Part shown: positions 14,710 to 57,689 of the stretch, piece by piece
Layout of the letters: the number at the start of each line of letters is the position of its first letter
How positions within the stretch are numbered: the stretch's first letter is position 1
Virus record (IMG/VR): IMGVR_UViG_3300025671_011474
Coordinates: 25,924-89,923 of that record
Length of the DNA: 64,000 nucleotides
Strand: one strand, 5' to 3'
Source of the DNA: a virus
The notes under the pieces: generated by a model
Told to the model about the DNA's origin: nothing
Databases searched by the model: none
Seen by the model: the letters and a program-made list of their open reading frames with translations, nothing else
Translations under genes and position numbers: made by a program

Positions 14710-14958
14710 ATGAAAAAATTCTCTGAACTAACTCAGTTAAATGAAATGAAATATGGTCAGCCCATGTATGGGGAGGATGACCTAAAACAGCATATGAAGG
14801 ATCTATTAGTAGCTGCTTCAGGTAACGATCAAAGGGTATTGAACGACCTGGTGGATTGCTTAAGTGACGACCAGATGAAAAAATGCTACGACAAGCTTGT
14901 TAATGTTTATAACTACACGGGCAAGAAGGGCAACGTGGTAAAACCATCTCTAGATTAA
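14710..14958 (+). CDS. Small protein with capsid-targeting-like leader (82 aa)
   Basis: The N-terminus MKKFSELTQLNE-M fits the capsid-targeting pattern seen repeatedly in this genome: a basic start, an aromatic residue, and L-N-E before a likely cut after Glu12. The remaining 70 residues are helical and acidic, with no known domain (GEDDLKQHMKDLLVAASGN, then a four-helix-like end). It has its own late-promoter-like box 20 nt upstream and is followed 2 nt later by another leader-bearing protein. Inference: an internal head protein processed by the prohead protease. The mature function is unknown. Confidence 0.6.
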   Translation: MKKFSELTQLNEMKYGQPMYGEDDLKQHMKDLLVAASGNDQRVLNDLVDCLSDDQMKKCYDKLVNVYNYTGKKGNVVKPSLD

Positions 14959-14960
14959 TT

Positions 14961-15326
14961 ATGGAATCCCTCTTAACTTACGAATCTTTTAAAGATCGAG
15001 GAAATTCCTCTATACAGATCAACGAGAAACTGGAGGTCAAGAAAAACAGCAAGGGAAACATCGTTTTGAATGGTGAGGAGTATCAGCTGGAGGCTAATTT
15101 TAATCCCGGGAATTATCTAAATCCATTTGGTAAAAAATGGAACAGGGTTCAGATTGTTGAATTAAACCCGTCGGGGGAAAATCTGAAGGTAAAAATCACG
15201 GAGCCTACAGAGCTTGAAAGCTCCATAGATAAGGAAATAGTAGGCAAGATAGAACAAGCTGTTGGTAAAGGGGAGAAAGAAATTGAGATCCCAGGACTAG
15301 TCACTAAGAGATTAGTAAAGGTCTAA
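14961..15326 (+). CDS. Protein with capsid-targeting-like leader (121 aa)
   Basis: The N-terminus MESLLTYESFKDRGNSSIQINE-K has the aromatic pair (Y-x-x-F) and an I-N-E site near residue 22, so the leader is longer than in its relatives. The mature part is basic and beta-rich (KKNSKGNIVLNGEEYQLEAN and similar), reminiscent of a small beta-barrel, but I recognise no family. It follows the previous gene by 2 nt and is closed by a strong terminator. Packaging in the head is inferred from the leader. Confidence 0.6.
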   Translation: MESLLTYESFKDRGNSSIQINEKLEVKKNSKGNIVLNGEEYQLEANFNPGNYLNPFGKKWNRVQIVELNPSGENLKVKITEPTELESSIDKEIVGKIEQAVGKGEKEIEIPGLVTKRLVKV

Positions 15327-15350
15327 TCACCAAAAAACCTAATTATCTAA

Positions 15351-15376
15351 AACCCCGGAATCCCGGGGTTTTTTGT
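15351..15376 (+). terminator. Rho-independent terminator
   Basis: AACCCCGG and CCGGGGTT form an 8-bp stem with a short loop, followed by TTTTTTG. It separates the two small leader-bearing genes from the RuvC/sugar operon. Confidence 0.85.
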
Positions 15377-15379
15377 GGT

Positions 15380-15389
15380 GATATATAGA
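15380..15389 (+). promoter_or_regulatory. Late-promoter-like box GATATATAG
   Basis: GATATATAG begins 4 nt after the terminator and ends about 24 nt before the TTG start of the RuvC-like gene. It is likely the promoter of the RuvC/sugar operon that runs to about 19.5 kb. Confidence 0.5.
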
Positions 15390-15412
15390 GTGAACTTTTA
15401 AATAAAACTATT

Positions 15413-16081
15413 TTGAGAACCCTTATAGGAATAGATTTCTCATTGAATTCCCCAGCATTTTGTTCGTTTAGAGATAATCATTTTAGATGGGGATCACTTA
15501 CAAGGAGTGACAGATCTGAGGAATCCTTGAAAAAGTCTAAAAATAAGCCATTTGCTTTCTTTTCGGATATTGATGAATTTGATCTTGTGTTCATGGGCAA
15601 GGAGAAAATGCCTGATGAATACACTGAAAGAGAGAGGATAAAAATTGATTATTTTTCGGATCTGGTGGAAAAATTCTGGGACTCTGTTAAGAACCACATT
15701 GAGCCTGGAGATGATGTGTTTATAGCTATAGAGGGCTTAAGCTTTGCTTCTAATGGCAATGCACTTATAGACATATCAATGGCAACTGCCTTGCTCCGGA
15801 AAAAGATAGTAGATTTCGTAGGAAGCTCAAATTTTTTCGTTTTCTCCCCAACCTCTGTTAAAAAATTTGCGATTAAGGGGAATGCCAAAAAGGATCAATT
15901 GTATGAGGCACTGATTAATACCGAAATCGTTGAAACCAACCTGAGCTATTTCACTAATATACTAAATGATAATAAGGGTGAATGGATAACCCCCAGTGGG
16001 AACGTGAATAAGCCATTGGATGATATTATTGATGCCACCTGGATATGTCTGTTTTTAGATGAGAGACTCAAAGAAGATTAA
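15413..16081 (+). CDS. RuvC-like Holliday junction resolvase
   Basis: The RNase H fold signature is visible: LIGIDFS with Asp8, FIAIEGLSFAS with Glu107, a FSPTSVKKFAIKGNAKKDQL block, and DDIIDA with acidic residues 203-207. These match the order and spacing of the acidic catalytic residues of RuvC-type nucleases. T4 uses the unrelated endonuclease VII for branch resolution, so this may be its functional replacement before packaging. The start is TTG (TTGAGAACC); no ATG precedes the first strand. The 3' end overlaps the nucleotidyltransferase gene by 23 nt. An alternative is a RuvC-fold nuclease with another role. Confidence 0.65.
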   Translation: MRTLIGIDFSLNSPAFCSFRDNHFRWGSLTRSDRSEESLKKSKNKPFAFFSDIDEFDLVFMGKEKMPDEYTERERIKIDYFSDLVEKFWDSVKNHIEPGDDVFIAIEGLSFASNGNALIDISMATALLRKKIVDFVGSSNFFVFSPTSVKKFAIKGNAKKDQLYEALINTEIVETNLSYFTNILNDNKGEWITPSGNVNKPLDDIIDATWICLFLDERLKED

Positions 16082-16805
16082 CATATTGATACCTCTGGGG
16101 GGAATGGGAAGAAGGTTTTCTGATGCTGGATACAGTGAGATAAAACCCTACATCAAAGTTATAGATGATTCCATGATAAGGACAGTAATCGATAACCTCA
16201 GAGACGGGTCTTCACACTTCATATTTGTCATCAATGAGGAGCATATTTCTATCGATGAATTCAGGGAACATATAGGTGATACTGGAATCTCTTTTGATGT
16301 CGTTTCTACTCCAGCATTAACTGAGGGCCCAGCTTGTACCGCACTCCTTGCGAAAGACCTTATTAACACTAAAAATCCACTTATTATAGCGAATTGTGAC
16401 CAGGTAATACTGGATTTTAATCTGGGTATTTTAGCCAAGTTCGCTTCTAATACCAATTGTGATGGATTTATAGGATGCTTCCTTTCCTCGTCTAAAAAAA
16501 ATAGCTATGTCAAGCTTGACCCTAATGGAGAAGTTTGTGATGTCAAGGAAAAGATAGTTATTTCGAATATAGCCACTAACGGGCTACATTACTGGGAGAG
16601 GGGTTCAGATTTTGTTGAATCTGCCCTTGAGATGATCGACAATAATGATCGATATAACAATGAGTTTTATGTTGCCCCAACATACAACTATCTTATAAAA
16701 AGGGGTAAGAAAATATTGCCATATTTTTTTAACCTTCATTTCCCGATAGGGACGCCGGAGGATTTGGAGATATACAAAAATAAAGTAAGATATGGAAGTA
16801 TCTAG
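16059..16805 (+). CDS. Sugar-phosphate nucleotidyltransferase
   Basis: The N-terminus ILIPLGGMGRRFSDAGYSE followed by IKP is the nucleotide-binding signature of sugar-1-phosphate nucleotidyltransferases (G-G-x-G-x-R and a later Lys). NCDQVI near residue 110 gives the metal-binding aspartate. At 248 residues it is a single Rossmann-like domain without the left-handed beta helix. The expected reaction is NTP plus sugar phosphate to NDP-sugar; the sugar is unknown. It opens a tightly overlapping set with a cupin, a RuBisCO-like protein, a GDPD-like protein and a glycosyltransferase-like protein, suggesting one pathway. Confidence 0.75.
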   Translation: MRDSKKINILIPLGGMGRRFSDAGYSEIKPYIKVIDDSMIRTVIDNLRDGSSHFIFVINEEHISIDEFREHIGDTGISFDVVSTPALTEGPACTALLAKDLINTKNPLIIANCDQVILDFNLGILAKFASNTNCDGFIGCFLSSSKKNSYVKLDPNGEVCDVKEKIVISNIATNGLHYWERGSDFVESALEMIDNNDRYNNEFYVAPTYNYLIKRGKKILPYFFNLHFPIGTPEDLEIYKNKVRYGSI

Positions 16806-17112
16806 AATAGAAGAATATAAGGGAGGTTGGTTTGTTGGTGATTTCTTACCTTCATCTTATGAAACCGATAAATTTGAGGTCTGCTTTAAGGAACATAAAA
16901 AGGGAGAGGAATGGACAGCACATTACCATAAGGAAGCGGACGAAATAAATTACTTACATAAGGGTAGAATGATTATACAGGATAGAGTCCTCGAATCTGG
17001 TGACGTTTTTGTCATACGGAGATATGAGATAGCTAATCCAGTTTTCCTCGAGGATTGCGAGGTTTTTATAGTTAAGACACCCTCTAAACCGGGAGATAAA
17101 TATGAAATCTGA
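16792..17112 (+). CDS. Small cupin protein
   Basis: A 106-residue single-domain cupin. It shows W-T-A-H-Y-H-K-E-A-D-E (metal-ligand style H-x-H and E), then a GRMIIQDRVLESGDVFVIRR stretch matching the second cupin motif. It overlaps the upstream transferase by 14 nt and the RuBisCO-like gene downstream by 11 nt, so the three should be translated together. Cupins next to sugar nucleotidyltransferases are often epimerases or isomerases of sugar intermediates. This one could act on the product or substrate of the RuBisCO-like enzyme. Domain call is strong; the reaction is unknown. Confidence 0.75.
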   Translation: MEVSRIEEYKGGWFVGDFLPSSYETDKFEVCFKEHKKGEEWTAHYHKEADEINYLHKGRMIIQDRVLESGDVFVIRRYEIANPVFLEDCEVFIVKTPSKPGDKYEI

Positions 17113-18295
17113 TTTATTTAAATTAAAGGAACAAATAGATAGCGAGAATTATTTCTTTGCTAAATACTATGTTGAATGTTCCAAAAATCTGGCATCTGCT
17201 GCTTGGAATATAGCGATAGGACAGAGTGTAGGTAACCCGTCTTCCAGGAGCGTATGGGAAACTGAGGAGCTGTTTCGGGATCACTCCTGTATCATAGTAG
17301 GAGATATGGAAAGCATGCTGGATAGCACCTCTGGGGAGGTTATAATTGCATTCCCTGTTGTAAATATAGATTTTAGAACAGATGGTGTATCTCACCTCTT
17401 GGTAAATGTGATGGGTGGACAGATGGATATTGAAGAGATCAAATCTTGCAAATTATTGGATATTGAATTCCCTGATTGTGTTTCGGAATGTTTTCTAGGG
17501 CCCAAGTACGGAATAAATGGTATCCGCGAATACACTGGGGTATATGATAAACCTTTACTCGGCGGTATATTAAAACCTAAGACCGGAGTTTCCCCTAGGA
17601 TAATGCTTGAGATGGTAAAAGAGATGGTTGAAGGTGGTGTGAATTTTATCAAAGAGGATGAAATACTATCAAGCCCCTCTTTTTGCAGGATAGAGGATAG
17701 GGTTCCTCTTATAATGGATTACCTGAAAGATAAAAGGGTTGTCTATTGTGTTTCCATACATTCGGATCCAGCTTATATACTGGAAAGGGTAAAGCAGGTT
17801 CATGAATTAGGTGGCAATGGGGTGCATGTCAATTTTTGGTGTGGTCTCGGGTCTTATAAAAATATCAGGGAATTGGATCTTCCCATATTCATGCACTTCC
17901 AAAAGAGCGGGGATCGGGTTATAACGAACCCGGATCACAATTTTAGTATATCCTGGCCCTTCATGTGTAAACTGGCAGGAATGATGGGTGTTGATTTTAT
18001 ACACTCTGGTATGATTGGCGGATATTATCCTGCTGATGAGGAAGAAGTTTTAAAAGCGATGGAGGAGTCAAGAAAACAAGGAACCCTTCCTGCTCTAAGC
18101 TGCGGATTTCATCCTGGTCTAGTTAACAATATAAACGAGCAGGTTGGCGTAGATTATCTAGCTAATGTAGGTGGGGCTATGCACGGTCACCCTAGTGGGA
18201 CTAAAAGTGGAGCCATAGCAATGAGGCAGGCAATAGATGGAATTGTTGGTAAAGAATTCAGGGAAGCTGTTGGTAAGTTTGGAAATCCTAAATAA
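17102..18295 (+). CDS. RuBisCO-like protein (form IV type)
   Basis: A full-length homologue (397 aa) of the RuBisCO large chain. Seen: the N-terminal YYVE motif (residues 22-25), GGILKPKTG with Lys158/Lys160, GGVNFIKEDE with Lys184, Asp186 and Glu187 (equivalents of carbamylated Lys201, Asp203, Glu204), His265, IHSG with His301 (His327), LSCGFH with Ser333, and NVGGAMHGHP with Gly357-358. Missing: the loop-6 lysine (Lys334), where the sequence reads GGYYPAD, and the Arg of the His-Arg pair. The metal-enolate site is kept but carboxylation is not expected. Family precedent is enolase, isomerase or decarboxylase chemistry on sugar-like or methylthio substrates. The neighbours favour a sugar substrate. 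Confidence 0.88.
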   Translation: MKSDLFKLKEQIDSENYFFAKYYVECSKNLASAAWNIAIGQSVGNPSSRSVWETEELFRDHSCIIVGDMESMLDSTSGEVIIAFPVVNIDFRTDGVSHLLVNVMGGQMDIEEIKSCKLLDIEFPDCVSECFLGPKYGINGIREYTGVYDKPLLGGILKPKTGVSPRIMLEMVKEMVEGGVNFIKEDEILSSPSFCRIEDRVPLIMDYLKDKRVVYCVSIHSDPAYILERVKQVHELGGNGVHVNFWCGLGSYKNIRELDLPIFMHFQKSGDRVITNPDHNFSISWPFMCKLAGMMGVDFIHSGMIGGYYPADEEEVLKAMEESRKQGTLPALSCGFHPGLVNNINEQVGVDYLANVGGAMHGHPSGTKSGAIAMRQAIDGIVGKEFREAVGKFGNPK

Positions 18296-23906: not shown

Positions 23907-24389
23907 ATGAATAACTTGAAGAGCTTTTATTCATTCCTGAACGAGGATGATTACTCATATTCACCTCTCTCCGCTGAAGATAGAATCAGAGCAATCAGAA
24001 AGAGGATTGAGGCCCAAACCCCGGAGGAAAAGGTATACCAAACTGTTTACGACGAGGGCGGAGCAGCAGGGAGGTTACTTTCCAGGACTATAAATGCTAT
24101 CACTGGAGTTAGCAGGGGTATTGCTGATGTTTTCAAAAAGGAGGATATCTCCAAAATGGATGACGGATCGCTGGAAAAAAATAGAGACGAGATACTCTCT
24201 AAATGGGGTGATGGAATTAGGACTTCTGGTAGAAACAAGCAAAAAGATTACGAAGAATTTTACACCGATGCGGTAATAAAAGGAAAGAAAACCTTCGGCG
24301 GTAAATATGATATTAATAACCCAAAAAATAGGGAGGAGAGAATATATTCCGACTATATCTCTGGAGCTGAAAAATATTTTGACGTATAA
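23907..24389 (+). CDS. Protein with capsid-targeting-like leader (160 aa)
   Basis: The ATG at 23907 gives MNNLKSFYSFLNE-DDYSYS, a near-perfect capsid-targeting pattern (F-x-x-F-L-N-E, cut after Glu13). An upstream ATG in the same frame would place this leader internally and would overlap the promoter box, so I reject it. The rest is hydrophilic and helical, rich in Lys and Glu (AEDRIRAIRKRIEAQTPEEK and similar), with no known domain. It heads a run with the nucleotidyltransferase gene, which also carries a leader. Likely an internal head protein; the function is unknown. Confidence 0.65.
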   Translation: MNNLKSFYSFLNEDDYSYSPLSAEDRIRAIRKRIEAQTPEEKVYQTVYDEGGAAGRLLSRTINAITGVSRGIADVFKKEDISKMDDGSLEKNRDEILSKWGDGIRTSGRNKQKDYEEFYTDAVIKGKKTFGGKYDINNPKNREERIYSDYISGAEKYFDV

Positions 24390-25301
24390 ATGGACAGAAT
24401 ATATTCTTATAAAAAATTCATAGCACTATTCGAAGGCGGAGCAGCCATAAAGTTCTCCCGGAGAATAAAAGAGAGGGAGGTACCTGGTACTCTTGAATCT
24501 ATAAAGGAGGTACTTTTCCCCCTTATTGGTGATGGTGAGATTGGTAAGGATTATCTGGTTATAGGAAGTGTTGGTAAAAAAAAAGGTGGTGATGAAACTT
24601 CTGGTGATATAGACCTCGGGATAGATAAGAGTTTTATAGCTAGAAAGTACAGCACAAACGCGGACGGTGTACTAGAATTTATTTACAATAAGCTTCTGGA
24701 TGAGCTTCCGGACAAATTGGGCTTTGTTCCTGATATGAAGCTCATGAAGGGTATAAATGTTATTTCGATAGGGTGGCCTATAGAGGGAGATCCTAATTTG
24801 GGCATAGTACAGCTAGATCTTATTCCTCTATCTGATATGGATTGGGCCAAGTTTATTTTCTATTCTCCTGACTATAGGAAAAATGAGAGTAAATATAAGT
24901 CTGCACACCGTAACTGGCTTTTTCAAGCGATATTATCTTCGTTGAAGGAGGTAATCTCGGAAGATTCCGATGGTGAGATTGAGGATTATTATTCATACGC
25001 ACTCCGTCTCAGTGATGGGATATTTAAGAACAAGAAGAGTTTTAAAGGAGCGACCAAGAGGCTCAAAAACCCCAAAACTGTGAGCGGGAGCACAGAGTTC
25101 ATAACAAGGGATCCACAGGAGTTTATAGAAATGATACTCGGTGAAGGTTTTAACGAGAATGACGTAAAAACATTCGAGGATGTATGGTCTATAGTTTCTT
25201 CCCCTGATTTTATACACTCTGACAAGATGGAATCAATAAAGGAGGACCTCATTCGATATCTAAAGAATGGTGGTTATGAAATCCCGATGGAAGTTAGATG
25301 A
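24390..25301 (+). CDS. Nucleotidyltransferase-fold protein with capsid-targeting-like leader
   Basis: The N-terminus MDRIYSYKKFIALFE-G fits the leader pattern (Y-x-x-F, L-F-E before Gly). The mature protein has VIGSVGKKKGGDETSGDIDL (about 56-75), the GS...D-x-D pattern of pol-beta-fold nucleotidyltransferases; LDLIP near 145 may give the third Asp. At 303 residues it also carries a helical C-terminal region. It abuts the preceding leader protein and precedes an acidic protein and the RNA ligase-NMNAT fusion. A packaged nucleotidyltransferase could modify host RNA, protein or nucleotides on entry, comparable in logic to T4 Alt. The substrate is unknown. Confidence 0.65.
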   Translation: MDRIYSYKKFIALFEGGAAIKFSRRIKEREVPGTLESIKEVLFPLIGDGEIGKDYLVIGSVGKKKGGDETSGDIDLGIDKSFIARKYSTNADGVLEFIYNKLLDELPDKLGFVPDMKLMKGINVISIGWPIEGDPNLGIVQLDLIPLSDMDWAKFIFYSPDYRKNESKYKSAHRNWLFQAILSSLKEVISEDSDGEIEDYYSYALRLSDGIFKNKKSFKGATKRLKNPKTVSGSTEFITRDPQEFIEMILGEGFNENDVKTFEDVWSIVSSPDFIHSDKMESIKEDLIRYLKNGGYEIPMEVR

Positions 25302-27695: not shown

Positions 27696-28232
27696 GTGGA
27701 AAAAAGAATTAGAAACTTCGCGGATTTCGTAGGAAGCAGAATAGACGAGGGAGATGGTTTTGGAACATTGCCATTCCTGCAAAAGAGAGATGGTGATCTA
27801 TTTTATTATTTCTTCCAGCTGGAGCTAGAGAATGGTGGTCAGAAGGGAATTATGTTCATGATAGGCAAATACTCCCAATATGAAACCATGGAGGGTCCTA
27901 AAAACTCATATGCTGTTTTAAACGTAAATGAGATTGCTCCTGAAATAATAGAGGATATTGCGATGGGTAAAGCGGAAATCCCTGAGATGAGTGACGGTAA
28001 ATTCAGATTGAGAGATAACGATATGTCCAGATATTTCGAACAAATTTCTAAAGCTATCCTGAGTTACCTTGAGAAGAATCCTAAGGTCATAAGAATATTT
28101 GATGAAATGCAGGATCATCTGGAAGTGGAAAATTACGGGGAGAATATGAAGTCCATATTGTTATCCTTTATTGGTCCGGAGTGGTCAATACAAGAAGGAT
28201 CTCACGAAGGAACTTTCATAATTAGCAGATAA
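27696..28232 (+). CDS. Protein with capsid-targeting-like leader (178 aa)
   Basis: The start is GTG, set by the promoter box and by the leader itself: MEKRIRNFADFVGSRIDE-GDG, with F-x-x-F and I-D-E before Gly. The rest has an alternating beta/alpha pattern (YYFFQLELENGGQKGIMFMI; YAVLNVNEIAPEIIEDIA), with a helical C-terminal half. I recognise no domain. It is monocistronic: a promoter precedes it and a gap of 56 nt follows it. Likely an internal head protein. Confidence 0.6.
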   Translation: MEKRIRNFADFVGSRIDEGDGFGTLPFLQKRDGDLFYYFFQLELENGGQKGIMFMIGKYSQYETMEGPKNSYAVLNVNEIAPEIIEDIAMGKAEIPEMSDGKFRLRDNDMSRYFEQISKAILSYLEKNPKVIRIFDEMQDHLEVENYGENMKSILLSFIGPEWSIQEGSHEGTFIISR

Positions 28233-33225: not shown

Positions 33226-33231
33226 ATACTT

Positions 33232-43382: not shown

Positions 43383-43916
43383 ATGAAGCACATAAGTTTA
43401 TTCGAAGACTATTCAAATAAGGTAAACGAAGGATCTACTCCTCTTTATAACGAGCTGGACTTTAAGAAGAATATAAATGCAGCTCCTGTCGAGGAATTGA
43501 AATACTCCGAAATCATACCTAGATTGAGGGATCTTCTAGCACAGAAAGAAATGGGATCGGTTGAGAACATCAATGTTATTGCTGAAGTCCCAACCCAGGG
43601 AAAGGGTGCTCCTGATTATATAAAAGATATTATAGCTCAAGAAAGAGAACGACTAGCCAGACAATATAAATCGACCATAGGTAAAAAAATAGGGAGCGAC
43701 GTAGAGGCGGAAGAATTTGACTTTGATGTTAACAGGTTCGGTGACCAGAGAACAATATTCTTCGATTCTGAATTTATCGTAGATCGCATTGAAAATGTAG
43801 GTGGTAATGATATGATAATAGGAATTCCAGCTTCTTTGCCGGATAAAGGATATGAAGCTAAGATCTCCCCTATGAAGGTCGATGAAATATATTTTACCCC
43901 AGCCGGAGAGGAATAA
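43383..43916 (+). CDS. Protein with capsid-targeting-like leader (177 aa)
   Basis: Start MKHISLFEDYSNKVNE-GSTP, with aromatic pair F/Y and V-N-E before Gly; the leader is 16 residues. The rest is mixed, containing PTQGKGAPDYIKDIIAQERE, then FDFDVNRFGDQRTIFFDSEF. No domain is recognised. It precedes the holin-like gene by 26 nt. Internal head protein by leader; otherwise unknown. Confidence 0.6.
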   Translation: MKHISLFEDYSNKVNEGSTPLYNELDFKKNINAAPVEELKYSEIIPRLRDLLAQKEMGSVENINVIAEVPTQGKGAPDYIKDIIAQERERLARQYKSTIGKKIGSDVEAEEFDFDVNRFGDQRTIFFDSEFIVDRIENVGGNDMIIGIPASLPDKGYEAKISPMKVDEIYFTPAGEE

Positions 43917-49010: not shown

Positions 49011-50219
49011 ATGGATAGCAGGATACTTAACTTCAGTGATTTCAGGGAAGAGATATTAAATGAAAACTCTAGCGGGACATTAGATCCTGCTAAAGCTCAA
49101 CTTCACGCCTTAGCGGATCAAATACAGAAAAACAGCGATCGAATAAACCAAGCTAGGACTAATATAGCCTTATCATCAGGTCCCAACCAGCAACAAGTCG
49201 ACCAACCTAAGGTGGGTGACATTGGAAGCATAAAGGCAATAGACCTACTATTAGCAACTCCTGCCGGAGCGGGCCTAGCTAAGATTTTGGCTAATAATCC
49301 GGATTATATTGCTCAAGAGGGTGTACCAACTCAATCGGTATCTGATTCCCCTATGACTGTTGGTTCGGTTTTGGATAGGCTCAATAAATCTAGAGCGGAC
49401 AAGGACCAATTTGATAACAATGTGGAATCTATAAAAGCCGCAGCAGAGGATGAAAACGCGGTGATGGAACCATCGTCTAGTCTATTGCCTCCCAGCTCCC
49501 CATATAATTACGGTTCTTGGTCCAAGAAAAGATCCCACACTGATACCGATGATGAAAGGTGGGATGCGGTCAAGAAAGCACTTACGGATGAGGGATATAA
49601 GGTTAACACCAAAGAAGTTAACCTTATTGCGATAAGAAATAACCTCTCCGAGAAGATTGGACATCAAAACCACTTCACAGATTGGATTATTGTGATGAAC
49701 CCAAAAAAGGATAAGATTATTCGGATGTTTGAAGCAACGACTACTCCTGGTCCTTTGTATTTGGCGGTTCCTTTCAGAAACTGGTATGTTGCTGCTAACC
49801 CGGATTCCTCGATTAATCCAAAGGGTTTAGCTATCGTACAACCTGGTAAATATTCATATAAGATCGGAAGCCATAGAGGCTACCAGGCATTGGTACAGGA
49901 CGGAAGCGTAAAGGTGCATCGATACGTTCCTGTTGCATCTCCAGGCGATGCCAAATATACCACTTATTCTCCTGGTAACTCTGAATCCGGTAAGTTTGGA
50001 ATAAACATCCACAGAGCTGATCGCTCAGGATCTACTGAAAAAATAAATAGTTATTCAGCTGGATGTTTTGTTTTCGAGGATTCGAGTGGACTCTCCAACA
50101 CTCTTTACGCTCTTGAGAAGAACAAGCAAAGTAAAGTAGATGTGTATTTGTTAGAGTTGGATAAATTAGATTCGAGTGCACGTAAGGAAATAGAGAGCGT
50201 TATTTCATCTCTTAGCTAG
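49011..50219 (+). CDS. L,D-transpeptidase-like protein with capsid-targeting-like leader
   Basis: The leader MDSRILNFSDFREEILNE-NSSG shows F-x-x-F and L-N-E. Residues about 20-170 are helical and low complexity. The C-terminal domain (about 180-400) contains GKFGINIHRADRSGS and YSAGCFVFEDSS, the H-x-A... S-x-G-C catalytic pattern of the YkuD-like family. In phages, this fold appears in peptidoglycan-active proteins. A packaged enzyme of this type could help DNA cross the cell wall during entry, and it is far from the amidase gene. The catalytic domain call rests on the His and Cys motifs. Confidence 0.65.
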   Translation: MDSRILNFSDFREEILNENSSGTLDPAKAQLHALADQIQKNSDRINQARTNIALSSGPNQQQVDQPKVGDIGSIKAIDLLLATPAGAGLAKILANNPDYIAQEGVPTQSVSDSPMTVGSVLDRLNKSRADKDQFDNNVESIKAAAEDENAVMEPSSSLLPPSSPYNYGSWSKKRSHTDTDDERWDAVKKALTDEGYKVNTKEVNLIAIRNNLSEKIGHQNHFTDWIIVMNPKKDKIIRMFEATTTPGPLYLAVPFRNWYVAANPDSSINPKGLAIVQPGKYSYKIGSHRGYQALVQDGSVKVHRYVPVASPGDAKYTTYSPGNSESGKFGINIHRADRSGSTEKINSYSAGCFVFEDSSGLSNTLYALEKNKQSKVDVYLLELDKLDSSARKEIESVISSLS

Positions 50220-50433: not shown

Positions 50434-51807
50434 TTGAGCTCTACTTTAACCATTACGGATCAGATAAACCAGAAATATAGGGAATATGCCTTATATGTCT
50501 TGCAGGCTAGAGGAATACCTAATTTCTATGATTCCTTGACCCCGGTACAGAGAATAATAATAGAAAATTCGCCAAATTCTTTCAATAAGACCGTTGGCCT
50601 CGTGGGAGAGGTGATAAGAACTGGCCTATATCATCATGGCGATTCTTCACTGGCTGGCGCTATATCAAAATTGGCTCGACCTTTTGGCTGTGCCTATCCT
50701 ATACTCGAGGGGGATGGGTTTTTTGGATCTCCTGTTAACCCTAACCCTTCCGCTCCCAGATATACCTCGGTAAGAATAAACCGGGATATAAAGGATATAG
50801 TCAAGAGACATGAGGATCTCAATGAGAAGAATGAGGAGGGTGGTCATGATTGGATACATCTGGAAGTTCCTGTGGGTCTTCTTACCCATGTGGTCGGTAT
50901 TGCGGTTGGGTACCGGAGTAATATACTTCCCCGTAAGATGGAGGATATAGTGGAGTATTTGGAGGGGAAGAATAAGTTATTGAAACCATATTTCAAAGAC
51001 TTCAGAGGGAAAATTTATAAGGTTGGTCCAGAGGATAATATCTGGATTCTGGAGAGCGGATTTGAGGTCAATAAAACTAGGAAGACAGTTAGAATTTTTG
51101 ATCTTCCTCCCGTTATGAGGTATGACTCATTCATGAAAAAGCTCCTATCCAAGCTGGATTTTTCAGATTGGGAATTTAGGGTCAACAATAATTCTCAGAG
51201 TACCTGCGATGTTACGGTGTATCTAAATAAGGTGCCAACTAAGGAATTTGATTCTGCTGTTGAGCTTATTAAGAAACAAACGAAGATAGTGGTGAAAGAG
51301 GATGTCGTCTTAATCAAAGACGGGCTTGTTGCTCAATTTGACTCCGTAAAAGAGTATCTGGATGCGTTCAGGGTTCACTTAGAGAATGTCCGCTTGAAGA
51401 GACTAATTAGAGACGAGGTGAATCTTAACCTTGATCTCGAATTCTTGGAGGCCAAGTTAAAGTTCCTGCTCTACATGAGCGAGAAGAAGAGGAAGAATAG
51501 TGAAATTATATCTTTCTTATCTGGATTCAAAAAGTGGATATCACAGAAGCTATCATCTATCCAAATTATAAAGCTCTCTTCTGATCACATCAAGGAGACC
51601 GAGGATGAAATAAAAAGAGTTAAAAGTGAGATTAGAAAAACTCAGGCCCTAATTAAGAAGCAGGAATCGGTGGTTAAAAAAGTAACAGCTTCTCTTAGAA
51701 AAACCAAGGCTGCTTCTCTACTTCCTAAATCCAACGTTAGAACTCCCCAGGAGATAGATCCCGAGGTGGAGATTTTTGAATTAACAGATGACGAGGAGGA
51801 TATATAG
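50434..51807 (+). CDS. 52: DNA topoisomerase II medium (GyrA-like) subunit, gp52-type
   Basis: The start is TTG. The catalytic block near residue 110 reads SAPRYTSVRI with the active Tyr110. Typical GyrA-like segments precede it: LQARGIPNFYDSLTPVQRII and YHHGDSSLAGAISKL. Later helices form the long coiled-coil tail (KETEDEIKRVKSEIRKTQ and similar). At 457 residues it matches T4 gp52 (442). It forms the DNA-cleaving part of the topoisomerase with the gp39-type subunit. The two genes are separated by 4.4 kb, here as in T4 they are not adjacent. Confidence 0.9.
   Translation: MSSTLTITDQINQKYREYALYVLQARGIPNFYDSLTPVQRIIIENSPNSFNKTVGLVGEVIRTGLYHHGDSSLAGAISKLARPFGCAYPILEGDGFFGSPVNPNPSAPRYTSVRINRDIKDIVKRHEDLNEKNEEGGHDWIHLEVPVGLLTHVVGIAVGYRSNILPRKMEDIVEYLEGKNKLLKPYFKDFRGKIYKVGPEDNIWILESGFEVNKTRKTVRIFDLPPVMRYDSFMKKLLSKLDFSDWEFRVNNNSQSTCDVTVYLNKVPTKEFDSAVELIKKQTKIVVKEDVVLIKDGLVAQFDSVKEYLDAFRVHLENVRLKRLIRDEVNLNLDLEFLEAKLKFLLYMSEKKRKNSEIISFLSGFKKWISQKLSSIQIIKLSSDHIKETEDEIKRVKSEIRKTQALIKKQESVVKKVTASLRKTKAASLLPKSNVRTPQEIDPEVEIFELTDDEEDI
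51799..51807 (+). promoter_or_regulatory. Late-promoter-like box inside gp52 3' end
   Basis: GATATATAG overlaps the stop of gp52 and lies 21 nt before the next ATG, in keeping with the standard spacing. Confidence 0.55.
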
Positions 51808-51828
51808 GATAAATTATACAGGTTATCC

Positions 51829-52752
51829 ATGATTAATGACTATGTAGACCACTACTTCCTAACCGCAATCGATGAGGGACTTCAAGTTGACTGGGAGAAG
51901 TCAGGACTCCCTATAGACAGTGAGATTAAAATAAACAACCAGTCCGTAAAGCCATATGAGATCTCACTGAATGTTGTTGATACCTGTTTGGAAAACATTA
52001 GGGAAGTTTCCAAAGAAAATGTTGTGAATGCTGCAAGGCCGATCTTCTTGGTAGCTTTTAATAGGATGGCCAAAAAGATATTTCCTGCTTTGGTCCCCTA
52101 TATAATCCCGGGAATTAAATATGAGGGAAAGGACGTTATAAAAGAGAAAGTCATAACTCCACAACAATTTTGGAAGGAAGCTTGGCCTAAAGTATGGAGT
52201 GAATTCAGTGAACCCGAGAAAAAACTTCTCAAGAAATATACCGTCCTATCCCCTGAGACCACGTACGATGAAGTGATGGACGGATTAGCTGATGCACTGT
52301 ATAATCCTACTTATAGTATGATTGTAGAAGAACAGGCTAATCTTTTCATAGAATTGATGGGAAACACATTTTCTCGACTTTTCGGTGGAAGAAGAGTTGA
52401 GATGTCAAACAAGATGCTTTCCGATTTATTTACGGATCTTAATTCCAGACTTGGTAGTAAAAAGATAGATTTCAAGCTATTAAAGAAACCGGAGGTAGAG
52501 GATGGCAACGTAGAGGATGTGAAATCCGATATAAAGTCTCCTGAAGCTAAGAAATCCCTTGCGGAGCTAGAGAAGCAGCTTTCCTCTTTTAGTGCAGATC
52601 TGGCCAAATCTAAGTCTACCGGAGGATCAAAAAATGACAGTCAATCGACTATCCCCACTGATGTCCCTTCAGTAAAGAAATGGGCAAAGACCTTAGACCC
52701 AGCTACTAAGCAAGTTATAATAGATACCATTAGATCTACTGGCATGAGGTAA
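51829..52752 (+). CDS. Hypothetical protein with helical C-terminus (307 aa)
   Basis: The N-terminal 200 residues are mixed alpha/beta with no motif that I recognise (DYVDHYFLTAIDEGLQVDWE; NAARPIFLVAFNRMAKKIFP). From about residue 210 comes a Lys/Asp-rich, Ser-rich linker and helix (SPEAKKSLAELEKQLSSFSA), then a globular end (VPSVKKWAKTLDPATKQVII). It stands between gp52 and the probable clamp, with its own promoter box and a terminator. A replication or structural role cannot be separated. Confidence 0.5.
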   Translation: MINDYVDHYFLTAIDEGLQVDWEKSGLPIDSEIKINNQSVKPYEISLNVVDTCLENIREVSKENVVNAARPIFLVAFNRMAKKIFPALVPYIIPGIKYEGKDVIKEKVITPQQFWKEAWPKVWSEFSEPEKKLLKKYTVLSPETTYDEVMDGLADALYNPTYSMIVEEQANLFIELMGNTFSRLFGGRRVEMSNKMLSDLFTDLNSRLGSKKIDFKLLKKPEVEDGNVEDVKSDIKSPEAKKSLAELEKQLSSFSADLAKSKSTGGSKNDSQSTIPTDVPSVKKWAKTLDPATKQVIIDTIRSTGMR

Positions 52753-52779
52753 GATATAATGTAACTTAACGAGATTTAA

Positions 52780-52808
52780 ATCCCAGCAAAAAAGGCTGGG
52801 ATTTTTTG
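52780..52808 (+). terminator. Rho-independent terminator
   Basis: ATCCCAGC and GCTGGGAT form an 8-bp stem around an AAAAAAG loop, followed by TTTTTTG. Confidence 0.9.
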
Positions 52809-52862
52809 TTTTAATCGAAAACAATCTACAGTGTCGTCATAGAAGATCTAAATATTAACACT

Positions 52863-53621
52863 ATGAAGATTAGAGTAACCAGCACCAGCAACCTTATTTC
52901 TTTCCTGAAGAAGCTGAAGGTTGTTGATAAGAGCGTCCTTCTTGAATTAGATAGCGAGAAGCTCTTTTGTAAGGTCCACACCCCCGATAAATCTGTTATG
53001 AAGTATGCCTCGGTGGATGTTGATCAGGTATTTGATGAAATGCCTGAATTAGATGGGTCCTGTGATAGAATAAAGATCGGTTTAATCGACGTCACTAGAC
53101 TCATGGATTGCTTCAAGCACTTCAGGCCGGAGGAGGATATACATCTTGATCTCGAGGTTTCTGAGATTGATGGAGATTGCGTAGCTACACAACTACATGT
53201 TATATCAAATTCTCTCCAGATTAAAATTAGATGTGCAGATCTTTCCCTGATATCATATGTTGAGGACAATATCCTTTCCATAGTGCATTCAAAGGAGGAT
53301 CCTCTCTCAAAGTTTAAGATCTATAGTTCGGATTTCTCCTCTGTAATGGCCCTATGTGGGTTGGAAAGTAATTCCGAGGAACTTCTAGTCTACAAGGTAG
53401 ACGCTGAGAATGTGAAAATCAATGGGGATTCATTCAATTATAAGCTAAACATAGGCCCGGATGAGATTTCCGTTGAGGGTAGCACAGAATCCTCCATCTA
53501 TAAATCACATCTCAACTATGTTGATACTGAAACGTGTGGATGTTATTTGCACGAAAACAGAATCGTGTTTTTTTCTGAGCAGTCCGATACATCAACTGCT
53601 GTGGGTATTATAGAGAAGTAA
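52863..53621 (+). CDS. 45: Probable sliding clamp (gp45-like)
   Basis: 252 residues with repeated strand/helix units: MKIRVTSTSNLISFLKKLKV opening, then ILLELDSEKLFCKV-type strands (VLLELDSEKLFCKV) and a second unit (KFKIYSSDFSSVMALCGLES). The C-terminal strand HENRIVFFSEQSDTSTAVGI is similar to clamp ends. Length (T4: 228) and fold pattern suit gp45. The strongest support is context: it is 8 nt upstream of the catalytic half of DNA polymerase, which it would tether. The sequence match is weak at residue level. It may also contact late transcription, as in T4. Confidence 0.6.
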   Translation: MKIRVTSTSNLISFLKKLKVVDKSVLLELDSEKLFCKVHTPDKSVMKYASVDVDQVFDEMPELDGSCDRIKIGLIDVTRLMDCFKHFRPEEDIHLDLEVSEIDGDCVATQLHVISNSLQIKIRCADLSLISYVEDNILSIVHSKEDPLSKFKIYSSDFSSVMALCGLESNSEELLVYKVDAENVKINGDSFNYKLNIGPDEISVEGSTESSIYKSHLNYVDTETCGCYLHENRIVFFSEQSDTSTAVGIIEK

Positions 53622-53629
53622 GATAAGCT

Positions 53630-54775
53630 ATGTCTGAGAGGGAAGAATTAAAGGAAAAAATTGAGGTTCTTACGGCTCTTAAGAATGAGCTTAAGAACGA
53701 GGAGCAAGCTGTAAAACTTACCATGAATTCCATTTATGGTGCAATAGGGAATAGCTGGTTTGCCTGTTTTAATCCCGAAGTAGCTGAAGCTGTTACCCTA
53801 CAAGGACAAAGCTTGATTAAGCACTCCGAGAAGATTCTCGATAAGTATTTTCATGAGTTTTGGCATAAGGACAAGGAATTGCATGATAAGCTGGGACTAA
53901 CATCGGTTAAGAAGATACACAAGCCGATGGTCGTTTATGGTGATACTGACTCCAACTATGTAACCTTTCAGGAAGTCGTAGCCTCTTGTGAAGGATGGGA
54001 AGGAAGTGAAAAGGATTTGATATTAGCAATAAATGAGAATCGATTAGTCGGATATCTCAAGAAGTGCTTTGATATCTACGCAGAAAAATGGGGAACTGAT
54101 AATTATCAGGATTTTGAGATGGAGACTCTCTCCATCAACGGGATATTCCTGGGTAAGAAAAAATATGTTACCAATATCGTTTATTCCGAAGGTGTACATT
54201 CCGAGCCTTTAACATCCATCAAAACTACTGGGGTTGAGATGGTGAAAGGCGGAACCCCATCATTCGTAAGGGAGAAGCTCATATACTTAACCAAATTTAT
54301 TTTTAGCAAGGGTAATAAATTCGAGCTCCGAGAATTTGTTCAGGAGCTCAAGAAGATCAAGAGAGACTTTAAGGCTCAAGAGCCCGAAAATATATCCGCT
54401 GCTATCATGGTTAATAACTACGAGAAGTTTGTATTAAACGACACAACCAATCTGGAGGTAGCCAAGGGTTGTCCTATACATGTTAGAGCATCAGCATATC
54501 ACAATTACCTTCTGAATTCAACGAAGTTCAAGGATAAATATCCCTTGATCGGGGGCGGGGAAAAGGTTAGATTTTATTTTGTAAAGAGGAAGAACGTAAT
54601 GGAAAATAACGTTTTTGCATATGCTCAGGGTACATTCCCACATGAATTTGCTCCACCTATAGATTTTGATGAGCAGTTTACTAAAACTATCCTTGATCCG
54701 ATTAACAGATTTATAGAGGTAATGGGTTACAACCCGATAAGCCCTAATTTATTTATGATAAACACTCTTTTTTAA
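53630..54775 (+). CDS. 43B: DNA polymerase, C-terminal part (fingers, palm motifs B and C, thumb)
   Basis: This completes the split polymerase. It begins with a charged helix (MSEREELKEKIEVLTALKNE), then motif B VKLTMNSIYGAIGNS (Lys29, Asn33, Tyr36, Gly37) and motif C VVYGDTDSNY (103-108), followed by a thumb domain with KKKYVTNIVYSEG. Exonuclease and motif A are missing and are in the gene at 33284. Together the halves give about 851 residues, near T4 gp43 (898). The charged start mirrors the helix ending the first half, so the two fingers helices could pair. It follows the clamp gene by 8 nt. Confidence 0.9.
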   Translation: MSEREELKEKIEVLTALKNELKNEEQAVKLTMNSIYGAIGNSWFACFNPEVAEAVTLQGQSLIKHSEKILDKYFHEFWHKDKELHDKLGLTSVKKIHKPMVVYGDTDSNYVTFQEVVASCEGWEGSEKDLILAINENRLVGYLKKCFDIYAEKWGTDNYQDFEMETLSINGIFLGKKKYVTNIVYSEGVHSEPLTSIKTTGVEMVKGGTPSFVREKLIYLTKFIFSKGNKFELREFVQELKKIKRDFKAQEPENISAAIMVNNYEKFVLNDTTNLEVAKGCPIHVRASAYHNYLLNSTKFKDKYPLIGGGEKVRFYFVKRKNVMENNVFAYAQGTFPHEFAPPIDFDEQFTKTILDPINRFIEVMGYNPISPNLFMINTLF

Positions 54776-54776
54776 T

Positions 54777-55262: not shown

Positions 55263-56741
55263 ATGGGAAAAATATCCCCAGCTCTTAATTATAGCTCTTT
55301 CTTAAACGAAGCAGAGGATAGAGGGTCAATAGATATAATAATTTTAAGTGGTCAATCCTCGCCCAGTAAAACAGCTGAATCTTTCATTAGTGAGTGTTCG
55401 AACAGAGGAATAGAATGTAAGGCAGTCAATGTCAATAACTGCGTACTCGAGAAGGTTTATAACGGACATTTACTTAGAGAAGAAAAAGGGGATGAAACCA
55501 TAGAGATACTAATACGCCCGGAAACTACAGCCATAGTTCCGAGAAGAGGAGTCATAACCAACTCGCATACTAAGAGGATCATGTCGGATCTGGAAGACTC
55601 CAGATACTTTTGTCTGAACTCCCTCGAGTCTATAGAGATCTGCGAAAGCAAATACACAACTTCACAGGTACTTGACGATTCAGGAATTCCCGTTCCTAGG
55701 TATTCTTTAGTAAGTGGAGAAGATACACTTGATAGATCGCTCGAAGAAGTTGGTGGGGAATTTCCGATAGTAATGAAGCTGTTAGCGGGTACTCAGGGAA
55801 TCGGAGTATCCGTAGTTGATTCCTATGCTTCTCTTAAATCTGTATATCAGACAATAAGGAAGCTCGATCCGGATGGTGAGATCCTACTCCAGGAAAAAAT
55901 AGATTCCAACTTCGATATTAGGGTTCAAGTCATTACTAAGAAGTTTGACCCTCTTAATCCTGGCAAGGATAATTTTGAAATTCTGGGTGCTATGAAAAGA
56001 GAGGCAGTTGAGAAGGATTTCAGAACTAACTATTCACTAGGAGGAAGCGTTTCCTCGTATGAAATCACAGAGGAGATCGAAAAGATAGCTTGCGAATCTG
56101 CTAATGCTGTAGCTTGTCATTGGTGTGGTGTTGATATTATGATAGATTCAAAAACCGGGAATCCCTATGTTCTGGAGGTTAATTCCTCCCCGGGAACAGA
56201 GGGTATATCAGAGGCTATAGGAAAACCTATTGTGGGTGATGTGATCGATTTTATATCCAACAAGAACAATTGGTCTTACACCAAGATGGAGGTGGGATAT
56301 CTAGAAACGGTGGAAATCCCTCAAATAGGAAAATTTGTAGCTAAATTTGATACTGGTAATGGTTCCACCGCTAGCTCTATACATGCGGATGAGCTTAATA
56401 TAGATGGAGACCAACTAAAATGGAAGATCGGTGATGTTGAGTTAGAAAATAAAATAGTAGGATATACAAACACAGAAATTGGAAGAGAAACGGTAGAGAG
56501 ACCAATAATAGAGGTTGATCTAATTTTTAATGGTGTTAAGATACCAGGTGTTAAAATAGCACCAACTGATAGGGTATCCAAATCCACCCCTTTGCTTATT
56601 AACCGAAAACTTATGAAGAGATTGGGTGTTATGGTCAATCCACATAAGGCTTTTGTGATATCCGATCCTATCGATGATTACTCCCCACTTAAGACAAAAG
56701 GGGAAAGGCACGGAGGTATAGAATTTGATCAGAGTAATTGA
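55263..56741 (+). CDS. RimK-like ATP-grasp ligase fused to RimB-like protease, with capsid-targeting-like leader
   Basis: Three parts. The leader MGKISPALNYSSFLNE-AEDR matches the capsid-targeting pattern (Y-x-x-F-L-N-E before Ala). The ATP-grasp region (about 25-335) has IPVPRYSLVSG, GGEFPIVMKLLAGTQGIGVS, EILLQEKIDSNFDIRVQVIT, GGSVSSYEITEEIEKIACES and NPYVLEVNSSPGTEGISEAI, the RimK signature. The C-terminal region has KFVAKFDTGNGSTASSIHA with Asp363-Thr-Gly (RimB/retropepsin-like D-T-G) and LLINRKLMKRLGVMVNPHK. RimK adds glutamates to ribosomal protein S6; RimB removes or trims them. A packaged fusion could rewire host ribosomes at entry. The substrate is inferred. Confidence 0.8.
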   Translation: MGKISPALNYSSFLNEAEDRGSIDIIILSGQSSPSKTAESFISECSNRGIECKAVNVNNCVLEKVYNGHLLREEKGDETIEILIRPETTAIVPRRGVITNSHTKRIMSDLEDSRYFCLNSLESIEICESKYTTSQVLDDSGIPVPRYSLVSGEDTLDRSLEEVGGEFPIVMKLLAGTQGIGVSVVDSYASLKSVYQTIRKLDPDGEILLQEKIDSNFDIRVQVITKKFDPLNPGKDNFEILGAMKREAVEKDFRTNYSLGGSVSSYEITEEIEKIACESANAVACHWCGVDIMIDSKTGNPYVLEVNSSPGTEGISEAIGKPIVGDVIDFISNKNNWSYTKMEVGYLETVEIPQIGKFVAKFDTGNGSTASSIHADELNIDGDQLKWKIGDVELENKIVGYTNTEIGRETVERPIIEVDLIFNGVKIPGVKIAPTDRVSKSTPLLINRKLMKRLGVMVNPHKAFVISDPIDDYSPLKTKGERHGGIEFDQSN

Positions 56742-56750
56742 AACCTCGGG

Positions 56751-56760
56751 GATATATAAA
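56751..56760 (+). promoter_or_regulatory. Late-promoter-like box GATATATAAA
   Basis: A perfect repeat of the consensus, 22 nt before the next ATG. Confidence 0.6.
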
Positions 56761-56782
56761 TCAATAAAAAAACCAATCTAAA

Positions 56783-56962
56783 ATGGCTAGCGAAGAAAAA
56801 ACTGAAAAGATCCAAGTTCTCCTATCTAGTGAAGATCTCGAGGAACTAAGCAAAAAGATATCCAAAAAAGCATTGACCCAGGGACAACCTCCAGAGTCGA
56901 TTTCACATTACGTGAGAAGATTGATCAGGAGAGATCTGGGTAGATCCGGATCGGGTGATTAA
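56783..56962 (+). CDS. Small helical protein, possibly DNA-binding (59 aa)
   Basis: The frame MASEEKTEKIQVLLSSEDLE continues with ELSKKISKKALTQGQPPESI and ends SHYVRRLIRRDLGRSGSGD. The beta-alpha-alpha rhythm (I-Q-V-L-L, helix, then S-x-Y-V-R-R-L-I-R) is compatible with a ribbon-helix-helix transcription factor. It has its own promoter box and a terminator-like hairpin after it. I cannot assign a family with confidence, but DNA binding is plausible. Confidence 0.55.
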   Translation: MASEEKTEKIQVLLSSEDLEELSKKISKKALTQGQPPESISHYVRRLIRRDLGRSGSGD

Positions 56963-57271
56963 TTAGGATTGATCCCTGATAAAATCTTCAAACCTCATCA
57001 CCCTTGTTGGGTTAGGTGAGGTTTTTTGTTGTTCTATCTCGGGTTGATTGTGGTCGGTGTTTTGAAGTCCAACGTCCTCTTGTCGATCTACCTCATTGTC
57101 AGGAATCTCAGATATACCATTATGTCCTTCTGGATCTTCCGCTATTTCTTGCGGGTCTGTTTCTCCTGGAAATTCTTGGTTTACCGGAAAATCCTCTGTT
57201 GAATCCTGTTCTTGGTCGTCGAATTCAAGTGTATCCTCAATTTGGACGTCAATGTTTTCCTCTTCTGTCAT
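56963..57271 (-). CDS. Very acidic protein with leader-like motif at its C-terminus
   Basis: A 102-residue protein on the minus strand rich in Asp, Glu, Gln and Pro (DSTEDFPVNQEFPGETDPQE), so it should be disordered and strongly negative. It ends RVMRFEDFIRDQS, which copies the aromatic part of the capsid-targeting leaders (R-F-x-x-F-I) but at the C-terminus and without a cut site. The same strand has an internal ATG right at that motif. A scaffold or decoy interacting with the same head receptor is possible. The terminator of the convergent gene lies inside its 3' coding end. Gene reality is moderate. Confidence 0.45.
   Translation of the reverse strand: MTEEENIDVQIEDTLEFDDQEQDSTEDFPVNQEFPGETDPQEIAEDPEGHNGISEIPDNEVDRQEDVGLQNTDHNQPEIEQQKTSPNPTRVMRFEDFIRDQS
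56991..57027 (+). terminator. Terminator overlapping the convergent gene's coding end
   Basis: AACCTCA and TGAGGTT pair, with an inner ACCC/GGGT step, followed by TTTTTTG on the plus strand. It should stop transcription from the 59-aa gene while lying inside the minus-strand acidic gene. Confidence 0.65.
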
Positions 57272-57368
57272 TTTGATTTTTTATAAGATGTTGATCTATA
57301 TATTAGTATTCATATTTCCGTTTTTTGTTTCTCCCTAAGATAAATAGTGTATAATAATCTTTATCAAC

Positions 57369-57689
57369 ATGAAAAGACTTTTTGAATTCGATGACTTTAT
57401 GTCAGATCTTTCTTTATCCTTGCCCCAGCAGGAGATGATTAAAAATTTCGTGAGGAAATATGAGAAGTACTTTAAATTCCATGACCCAGATGAATTTGAA
57501 AATTCTTTAGATGAGATAGTTAAGGATGTTATGAACCAATTCTCATTCAAACCCAACCTGGAGGATGCAGTGAAAAACTACATATCGGGTTTACAGGACT
57601 TATCTGATGGTATATCTGTTATAATGGCTCCTAATCCGCAGATGATATATCGAACCCAACCGGACATGGTTCAAACCATAATGGGATAA
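57369..57689 (+). CDS. Small protein with partial leader motif (106 aa)
   Basis: Starts MKRLFEFDDFMSDLSLSLPQ, which has the basic start and F-x-x-F of the leaders but then M-S-D rather than x-x-E. So it is a borderline member. The rest is helical (EMIKNFVRKYEKYFKFHDPD, NLEDAVKNYISGLQDLSDGI). It is divergent from the acidic gene across a 97-nt AT-rich gap containing GATAAATAG. No domain is recognised. Confidence 0.5.
   Translation: MKRLFEFDDFMSDLSLSLPQQEMIKNFVRKYEKYFKFHDPDEFENSLDEIVKDVMNQFSFKPNLEDAVKNYISGLQDLSDGISVIMAPNPQMIYRTQPDMVQTIMG

Follow-up and report, generated by a model that had tools for sequence, protein, structure and literature searches.

Known head-packaged cargo and a leader shared by unrelated phage proteins

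In bacteriophage T4, a capsid-targeting sequence (CTS) brings the internal proteins into the prohead core; gp21 then removes the CTS, which leaves, and the internal proteins enter the cell with the DNA (PMC3012670, PMC7411985, PMC5694885). In SPN3US and phiKZ, many head proteins are packed and injected, several of them after cuts at x-x-Glu; several of the propeptides exceed 100 residues, the protease is of the S80 type, and eight processed proteins are described in SPN3US (PMC5694885, PMC7411985). The known cargo of these phages includes the virion RNA polymerase and inner-body proteins (also PMC13282480). A broad enzyme cargo of phage heads has been predicted as well, in the form of polyvalent effectors, MuF-fused enzymes, and head-packaged ADP-ribosyltransferases (PMC9503650). 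Here, we describe a 64,000-nucleotide stretch of viral DNA (the window; positions 25,924-89,923 of the 89,923-base record IMGVR_UViG_3300025671_011474, designated G000) in which unrelated proteins, including an adenylate kinase and a RimK protein, begin with a short leader resembling those of the T4 internal proteins.

The leaders of the window consist of 12 to 22 residues, are aromatic, and end in hydrophobic-x-Glu, in agreement with the T4 internal-protein pattern. Eleven of them had been pointed out in a sequence-only reading of the window, and all eleven translate as described there; the likeness to T4 noted in the same reading is borne out as well, in that a single pattern also finds IPI, IPII, IPIII, and 61.1. 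In its strict form, this pattern combines a core, [ILV]xx[F/Y]xx[F/Y], near the start with 0 to 10 further residues and then [LIVFM]xE, all within the first 32 residues of called starts. The leaders are probably T4-type capsid-targeting propeptides whose use has spread to dozens of cargo proteins, adenylate kinase and RimK-RimB among them. That the system works in the manner of T4 is the stronger claim; that each gene listed below is delivered cargo is the weaker one. The features of the window are as follows.

14710-14958, plus strand: 82-aa cargo candidate; leader MKKFSELTQLNE (14710-14745), with Leu in place of the second aromatic residue (F-SE-L)
14961-15326, plus strand: 121-aa cargo candidate; leader ending in INE (14961-15026), strict match
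23907-24389, plus strand: 160-aa cargo candidate; leader MNNLKSFYSFLNE (23907-23945), strict match
24390-25301, plus strand: 303-aa nucleotidyltransferase-like cargo candidate; leader MDRIYSYKKFIALFE (24390-24434)
27696-28232, plus strand: 178-aa cargo candidate with a GTG start; leader ending in IDE (27696-27749)
32902-33225, minus strand: 107-aa cargo candidate; leader MKANIKSFEDFLLE (33225-33184)
39430-40071, plus strand: 213-aa adenylate kinase; leader MDKVKSYEYFINE (39430-39468); PF00406 (3.4e-35) from residue 26
42532-43083, plus strand: 183-aa cargo candidate; leader MRIKGFSDFDRLSE (42532-42573), strict match; phrog_7595 (5e-12, unknown function)
43383-43916, plus strand: 177-aa cargo candidate; leader MKHISLFEDYSNKVNE (43383-43430), strict match
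49011-50219, plus strand: 402-aa cargo candidate with a C-terminal L,D-transpeptidase-like domain; leader MDSRILNFSDFREEILNE (49011-49064)
55263-56741, plus strand: 492-aa RimK (ATP-grasp) protein with a possible RimB-like protease domain; leader MGKISPALNYSSFLNE (55263-55310)
57369-57689, plus strand: 106-aa protein, doubtful member; aromatic core MKRLFEFDDF without a clear cut site

Compared with T4 IPI, IPII, and IPIII, the leaders share a short N-terminal position, two aromatic residues three apart, and the hydrophobic-x-Glu end (MKTYQEFIAE and MKTFKEFT...ITE in T4); the two systems also have in common diverse bodies, an S77 protease (MEROPS), and a Gp23-type capsid protein, the latter two found here in relatives. 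Unlike in T4, where there is a handful of such proteins, large genomes related to G000 have about 30 pattern matches each, the bodies include enzymes such as adenylate kinase and RimK, and the commonest site is L/I-N-E. The ejection proteins of SPN3US and phiKZ resemble this predicted system in the large number of packed head proteins and in the Glu-directed cuts; the difference is that here a short, 12- to 22-residue tag of the T4 type is present on dozens of genes, in place of long propeptides and an S80 protease. Finally, the delivery of polyvalent effectors is tied to fused domains such as MuF, whereas here it would be tied to a peptide of 12 to 22 residues.

Excess of the leader motif at protein starts

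We regard G000 as part of the genome of a large contractile-tailed phage because it encodes a gp32-like protein, pieces of a family-B DNA polymerase, ribonucleotide reductase, and topoisomerase subunits. Records that contain relatives of the window RimK protein reach 430 kb. The material for comparison included a near-identical record of the same virus (G001), the long relative that is closest to G000 (G002, with 85-96% identity in 10 of the 12 orthologues of the window proteins listed above), a 373-kb relative (G014), two further relatives (G005 and G006), and the huge phages LR756500, of which the first 400 kb were scored, LR756504 (636 kb), and LR745206 (635 kb). Genes were called with a simple, rough caller, so that some of the called starts are expected to be wrong.

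Nine of the 82 genes called in G000 match the strict pattern at their starts, against expectations of 0.3 from internal positions, 0.45 from 500 residue shuffles (maximum, 3), and 1.0 from 500 column shuffles (maximum, 4). Of these, 61430 (DegT aminotransferase) is probably a chance match; it is also the only match among 20 other window proteins scanned that had not been pointed out by the sequence-only reading. Conversely, 14710, 32902, and 55263 have recognizable leaders that fall outside the strict pattern. Since the pattern was drawn up from the leaders of the window, other genomes are fairer tests. Among these, strict matches were found for 30 of 411 genes in G014 (2.0 expected), 27 of 318 in G005 (2.4 expected), 12 of 224 in G006 (1.2 expected), and 33 of 487 in the first 400 kb of LR756500 (2.7 expected); the motif is enriched at protein starts in G002 too, and 41-kb stretches of LR756504 and LR745206 contain 3 of 30 (0.1 expected) and 4 of 41 (0.3 expected), respectively. 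Each count includes a few chance matches, and because orthologues are shared among some of these genomes, the counts partly depend on one another. As a control, six of the 218 genes called in T4 match the pattern, four of which are ipI, ipII, ipIII, and 61.1, while the other two look like chance.

If the resemblance were due to chance or composition, N termini rich in aromatic and acidic residues would simply look alike. Single matches, such as 61430, do appear to have arisen in this way, and there is no comparable signal in pT24 (2 of 259 genes, with 1.5 expected), in YerA41 (0 of 188), or in the first 50 kb of phiKZ (0 of 50). The absence of an excess in these three phages indicates that the motif is not general to phage proteins; against the 0.3 to 1.0 matches expected in G000 under the three nulls stand the nine observed and the excess in the other genomes, which refutes chance as a general account and leaves it with a negligible probability.

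The residues at and around the Glu are biased as well. In five records, [LIVFM]xE occurs within 13 residues after the core in 90 of 158 N-terminal cases (57%) versus 20% of 441 internal ones; Asp after cores drops from 27% to 13% at the N termini, and no other residue gains comparably to Glu. Among 132 distinct leaders from six records, which include some chance matches, position P2, left free by the pattern, is Asn in 40% (background, 7%), and P1' is Ser, Asn, Ala, or Gly in 58% (background, 25%). Among 120 internal matches, by contrast, the six commonest P2 residues do not include Asn.

Conservation of the leaders on unrelated bodies

Across four relatives (G002, G005, G006, and G014), the leader was found by a looser pattern in 35 of 40 orthologue pairs, one of which (57369 in G002) lies at a doubtful start. 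Among orthologues, the stretch between core and Glu varies in length, and the Glu is kept. For RimK, [FY]xx[FY][LI]NE[AS] is present in 37 of 37 relatives (26 distinct N termini, from a listing read by eye), with varying residues in front of it; the strict pattern scores 20 of these 26 N termini, missing some because Ala occupies a position where I, L, V, or M is wanted. For 24390, the looser pattern finds the leader in 12 of 12 distinct relatives (19 loci), and for 27696 in 5 of 5 (7 loci), with orthologues in G002, G005, G006, and G014 all carrying it; for both of these, as for the adenylate kinase, whose leader is kept in four of four fetched relatives, one of the search peptides was taken from the leader, a choice that favors leader-bearing relatives. 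None of the search peptides for RimK, 49011, and 43383 came from the leader. Orthologues of 43383 in G002, G005, and G014 have the leader, as do two of two distinct relatives by the looser pattern. Scans of viral contigs yielded few loci for the adenylate kinase (2), 43383 (2), and 27696 (7), so that their conservation leans mainly on the genomes fetched in bulk. In pT24, a "leader" of the adenylate kinase was discounted, since it appears only at a far upstream, implausible start.

The remaining leaders differ in how widely they are kept. The leader of 14961 is present in the G002 orthologue, that of 23907 in G002, G005, and G014, that of 32902 in G002 and G005, and that of 42532 in G002 and G006; the pT24 orthologue of 42532 has none. 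At 14710, the leader had been described as aromatic; the second aromatic residue is absent, but the site itself is kept in the orthologues of G002 and G014 (LNE or INE, followed by Met), the latter reading MKTFTDLKKINE. At 32902, for which two sites had been proposed, LLE and VSE, the former is the likely one, because the orthologues keep the first site (LLE, VTE, or VNE). In the weaker case, 57369, the aromatic core is present but orthologues do not retain the Glu site, and membership is therefore doubtful. The body of 49011 is also found untagged in other phages: of 11 distinct relatives, 5 have the leader, and the six far ones begin at the domain.

The bodies behind the leaders are unrelated, as had been stated from the window. 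Compared by BLAST, the strict-pattern proteins fall into nine families of nine in G000, 29 of 30 in G014, 22 of 27 in G005, and 25 of 33 in LR756500, where one group has eight members. In LR756500, arrays of leader genes with near-identical leaders and several leucine-rich-repeat (LRR) bodies lie at 11706-15898 of locus L156 and 12960-18055 of locus L171.

It is conceivable that one gene start was recently copied onto others, producing likeness without function. Near-identical leaders (MKYIKEYEEF...) do occur in gene arrays of LR756500, in some cases in front of related LRR bodies. The leaders of the window, by contrast, use different codons, so that their likeness is at the protein level, the RimK orthologues keep the motif while the neighboring residues change, and orthologues mostly retain the leader. 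Copying is thus very improbable as the explanation; it may be the route by which new cargo gains a tag, which leaves the upkeep of the tag unexplained.

An S77 protease and a Gp23 capsid protein in longer relatives

A T4-type tag would be removed by an S77 protease, the family of gp21, to which the sequence-only reading had linked the Glu sites. The 89,923-base G000 fragment has no match to the family at E <= 10. The sequence-only reading had named the lack of an S77-type protease in the genome as a refutation, and taken literally this holds for G000; the record is a fragment, however, and the protease is present in longer relatives, with conserved His and Ser. Of 23 relative records, 12 contain a match above the cut-off, among them every one of the 10 that measure at least 230 kb, and the open frames in the 12 relatives comprise 657 to 681 aa. 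In G014, the protease is a protein of 656 aa (50884-52854) whose first part matches S77 (1.1e-7); it passes the S77 cut-off and falls narrowly under that of S80 (23.2 versus 23.4 bits). This is unlike T4 gp21, which has 212 aa, in that the clade protease is part of a long protein. Residues matching H85, S140, and D168 of T4 gp21, which we take to be its catalytic residues, are invariant in 14 aligned distinct proteins (nine from the clade and those of T4, LR756500, pT24, LR756504, and LR745206); the S77 match of YerA41 is outside the alignment because BLAST with the G014 protein missed it. In several clade members, the protease starts with TTQ[KR]LNE.

The G014 protease (12884-14854 of locus L064, corresponding to G014 50884-52854) has a long C-terminal stretch after the S77 part, with many L-x-E-like sites. 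It is possibly protease and scaffold in one.

Directly after the protease gene, G014 encodes a Gp23 capsid protein (2e-40, 52871-54574), and the capsid proteins of the clade begin like T4 gp23. Among 19 capsid loci searched on both strands, 17 gave a protein matching the G014 capsid protein, 13 of them distinct; the two that did not were L181 (YerA41) and L183. All nine distinct capsid proteins of the clade (12 records) read ...HSLNE|SAGAY near residue 43, and this LNE|S is the commonest site of the leaders. Four distant phages have comparable sites at the corresponding position, namely, LR756500 (LYE|N), LR745206 (INE|N), LR756504 (IHE|N), and pT24 (ITE|S). The clade capsid protein is predicted to be cut after the Glu near residue 43. 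Furthermore, the record of G002 opens within the C-terminal part of the Gp23 gene; given the closeness of G002 to this phage, its gene order places the head genes most likely about 20 kb upstream of the first base of G000. A second, shorter Gp23-like match lies far from the main capsid gene at 242467-242988 of G014 and at places in seven other records; it is perhaps a vertex protein.

The leader might instead target a site other than the capsid, such as a phage-made compartment or complex, with the Glu being merely part of a binding motif. The link between leader and capsid is a prediction from sequence, and pT24 and YerA41 combine S77 and Gp23 with no excess of leaders. Nevertheless, the T4 internal proteins, whose leader is a CTS (PMC3012670, PMC7411985), fit the same pattern, the Glu site is shaped like the capsid junction of the clade, and the Glu stays where the length of the stretch before it changes. 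A non-capsid target is therefore improbable.

Predicted delivery of the cargo

Under the T4-type interpretation, packaging, cleavage at the Glu, and injection would proceed as follows. The cargo would be made with an N-terminal tag of 12 to 22 residues, probably a short helix with two aromatic residues, that would bind the scaffold core of the prohead. During prohead maturation, the S77 protease would cut behind the Glu at L/I-N-E or at a similar site; the tag would leave, and the mature protein would remain in the head with the DNA. On infection, it would be ejected into the next cell, where it could act ahead of phage gene expression. The binding of the leader to the core and the use of each cargo are likewise proposed by us.

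In two window proteins, the leader lies outside the folded domain. The five best-matching solved adenylate kinases align residue 19-23 of 39430 to their own residue 2-7, so that its leader and linker form an extension. The structure model of 24390 has a pLDDT of 85, with residues 1-16 below 50. Both features fit what would be expected of a removable tag.

The functional repertoire of the cargo was examined in proteins that were picked, not randomly sampled. Of 28 leader proteins compared with Pfam, 10 have a family over the cut-off: SLT twice, CHAP, peptidoglycan-binding (PG_binding_1), LysM, phage lysozyme, DUF2201 metallopeptidase, PNK3P phosphatase, LRR, and adenylate kinase; an acetyltransferase match was below it. 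In another scan of ten window leader proteins, RimK alone passed the cut-off. Its ATP-grasp domain matches PF08443 (2.6e-33), and the RimB-like match (PF05618, 0.002) is below the cut-off of that family. The nucleotidyltransferase-like protein 24390 has a conserved GS...SGDIDLG motif; Foldseek gave weak matches to Cid1 and Pol beta folds (best E, 4e-3; none at E <= 0.001), and a profile search against PDB sequences gave nothing at E <= 1. In 49011, H334 and S-A-G-C at 349-352 are invariant, and the best Foldseek match is Csd6 (E, 7e-4; low TM); the model is poor (pLDDT, 59), so that the L,D-transpeptidase reading consists of the conserved residues and this one match.

Content of ADP-ribosyltransferases, as in T4 Alt, had been suspected by eye from Y-H-x-like stretches in four leader proteins of relatives and is not claimed: one of the four proteins has a weak match (phrog_5470, RNA 2'-phosphotransferase, 1.9e-4), three have none, and none matches in Pfam. 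An annexin-like look of two proteins was not confirmed in Pfam, one of them being a phage lysozyme.

These families bear on a further possibility, namely, that S77 does cleave the leader as a tag, but that many of the tagged proteins serve in structure or assembly, for example as prohead core or cell-wall-cutting entry machinery, and not cytoplasmic effectors. Several carriers are cell-wall enzymes (the two SLT proteins, CHAP, PG_binding_1, LysM, and phage lysozyme), to which the L,D-transpeptidase-like 49011 can be added. In G014, moreover, three leader or leader-like genes (54668, 55817, and 56700) lie directly downstream of the capsid gene, and the core genes of T4 lie near its protease and capsid genes. 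Adenylate kinase, RimK, LRR proteins, PNK3P phosphatase, and the nucleotidyltransferase-like body, however, are implausible as structural parts. A structural or assembly role for many of the carriers is possible, although we regard it as the less likely reading.

Several observations weigh against packaging by a T4-type tag. No S77 match was found in G000 or in the near-identical G001, nor was Gp23 found in G001. Neither pT24 nor YerA41 has the leader excess; both encode S77 and Gp23, which means that the leader is not automatic with this head type. T4 Alt (MELITELFDE), which is packaged with a short propeptide, is outside the pattern, which is hence no full definition of head cargo. Five of the 40 orthologue pairs were scored leaderless (23907 in G006, 32902 in G014, 42532 in G005 and G014, and 57369 in G005), two of which are near-leaders (LKNFSMFSE, with FSMFSE, in 23907 and FKDCVNE in 32902). 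No virion proteomics of the clade was found. The RimK homologue of YerA41, which is 35% identical over 87% of the window protein and is annotated as "structural protein," lacks the aromatic leader. A "ribosomal protein modification protein" of YerA41 was identified in particles by LC-MS/MS (PMC7354516, Table 3), and we infer that it is this homologue, although the gene numbering differs; the particle list comprises 63 proteins, including DNA polymerases and helicases, so the particles may have been impure (PMC7354516).

We lean somewhat toward the broader proposition that in this clade, including likely kin of more than 600 kb, a portable T4-type tag loads and delivers about 30 unrelated proteins per genome at once, among them enzymes directed at the ribosome (RimK), nucleotides (adenylate kinase and the nucleotidyltransferase-like protein), and the cell wall. 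Head-packed cargo, Glu-directed prohead proteases, and CTS leaders are already known, as is large head cargo in phiKZ and SPN3US. The "new scale" of head delivery proposed from the window thus applies to the short T4-type tag but not to head cargo generally, because of the large cargoes of those phages; what appears to be new is the use of such a tag, in huge phages of one clade, by about 30 genes per genome, with unrelated enzymes among the products. Within the literature searched, which concerned capsid-targeting leaders in phages, jumbo and huge ones included, and was available in part, no cargo this broad with a T4-type tag was found. Overall, the interpretation offered by the sequence-only reading is partly supported, with the points accessible to sequence analysis mostly in its favor.

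If the proposition is true, host takeover would start with a delivered set of enzymes before any gene expression, and the T4 internal-protein system would represent one minor instance of a broader delivery strategy. Much of the head cargo of uncultured huge phages could then be read from sequence by means of a simple motif, and in each genome dozens of "hypothetical proteins" would become predicted effectors for injection, with enzymes to test among them. The leaders would also offer naturally occurring short tags with which proteins could be loaded into phage heads.

Host and other genes of the window

When the DNA of 33209-38791 was compared with a phage collection, the named matches, 67-73% identical, were to ribonucleotide reductase genes from phages of Tenacibaculum and Cellulophaga; this hints that the host belongs to the Bacteroidetes. 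A bS21 marker that would link the clade to bS21-encoding Bacteroidetes phages (PMC9723584) failed, with S21 found in 3 of the 18 records searched.

The family-B DNA polymerase of the window is in two pieces 19 kb apart: 33209-34696 comprises the exonuclease and the start of the polymerase domain, and 53630-54775 covers more of the polymerase domain. At 17102-18295 lies a gene with a RuBisCO large-chain catalytic domain (PF00016, 2.5e-34); by eye, the gene adjoins sugar-nucleotidyltransferase-like (16059) and cupin-like (16792) genes. Finally, the window encodes a DUF7788/DUF2828 protein at 59401-60867 (6.7e-56 and 1.4e-28, respectively).

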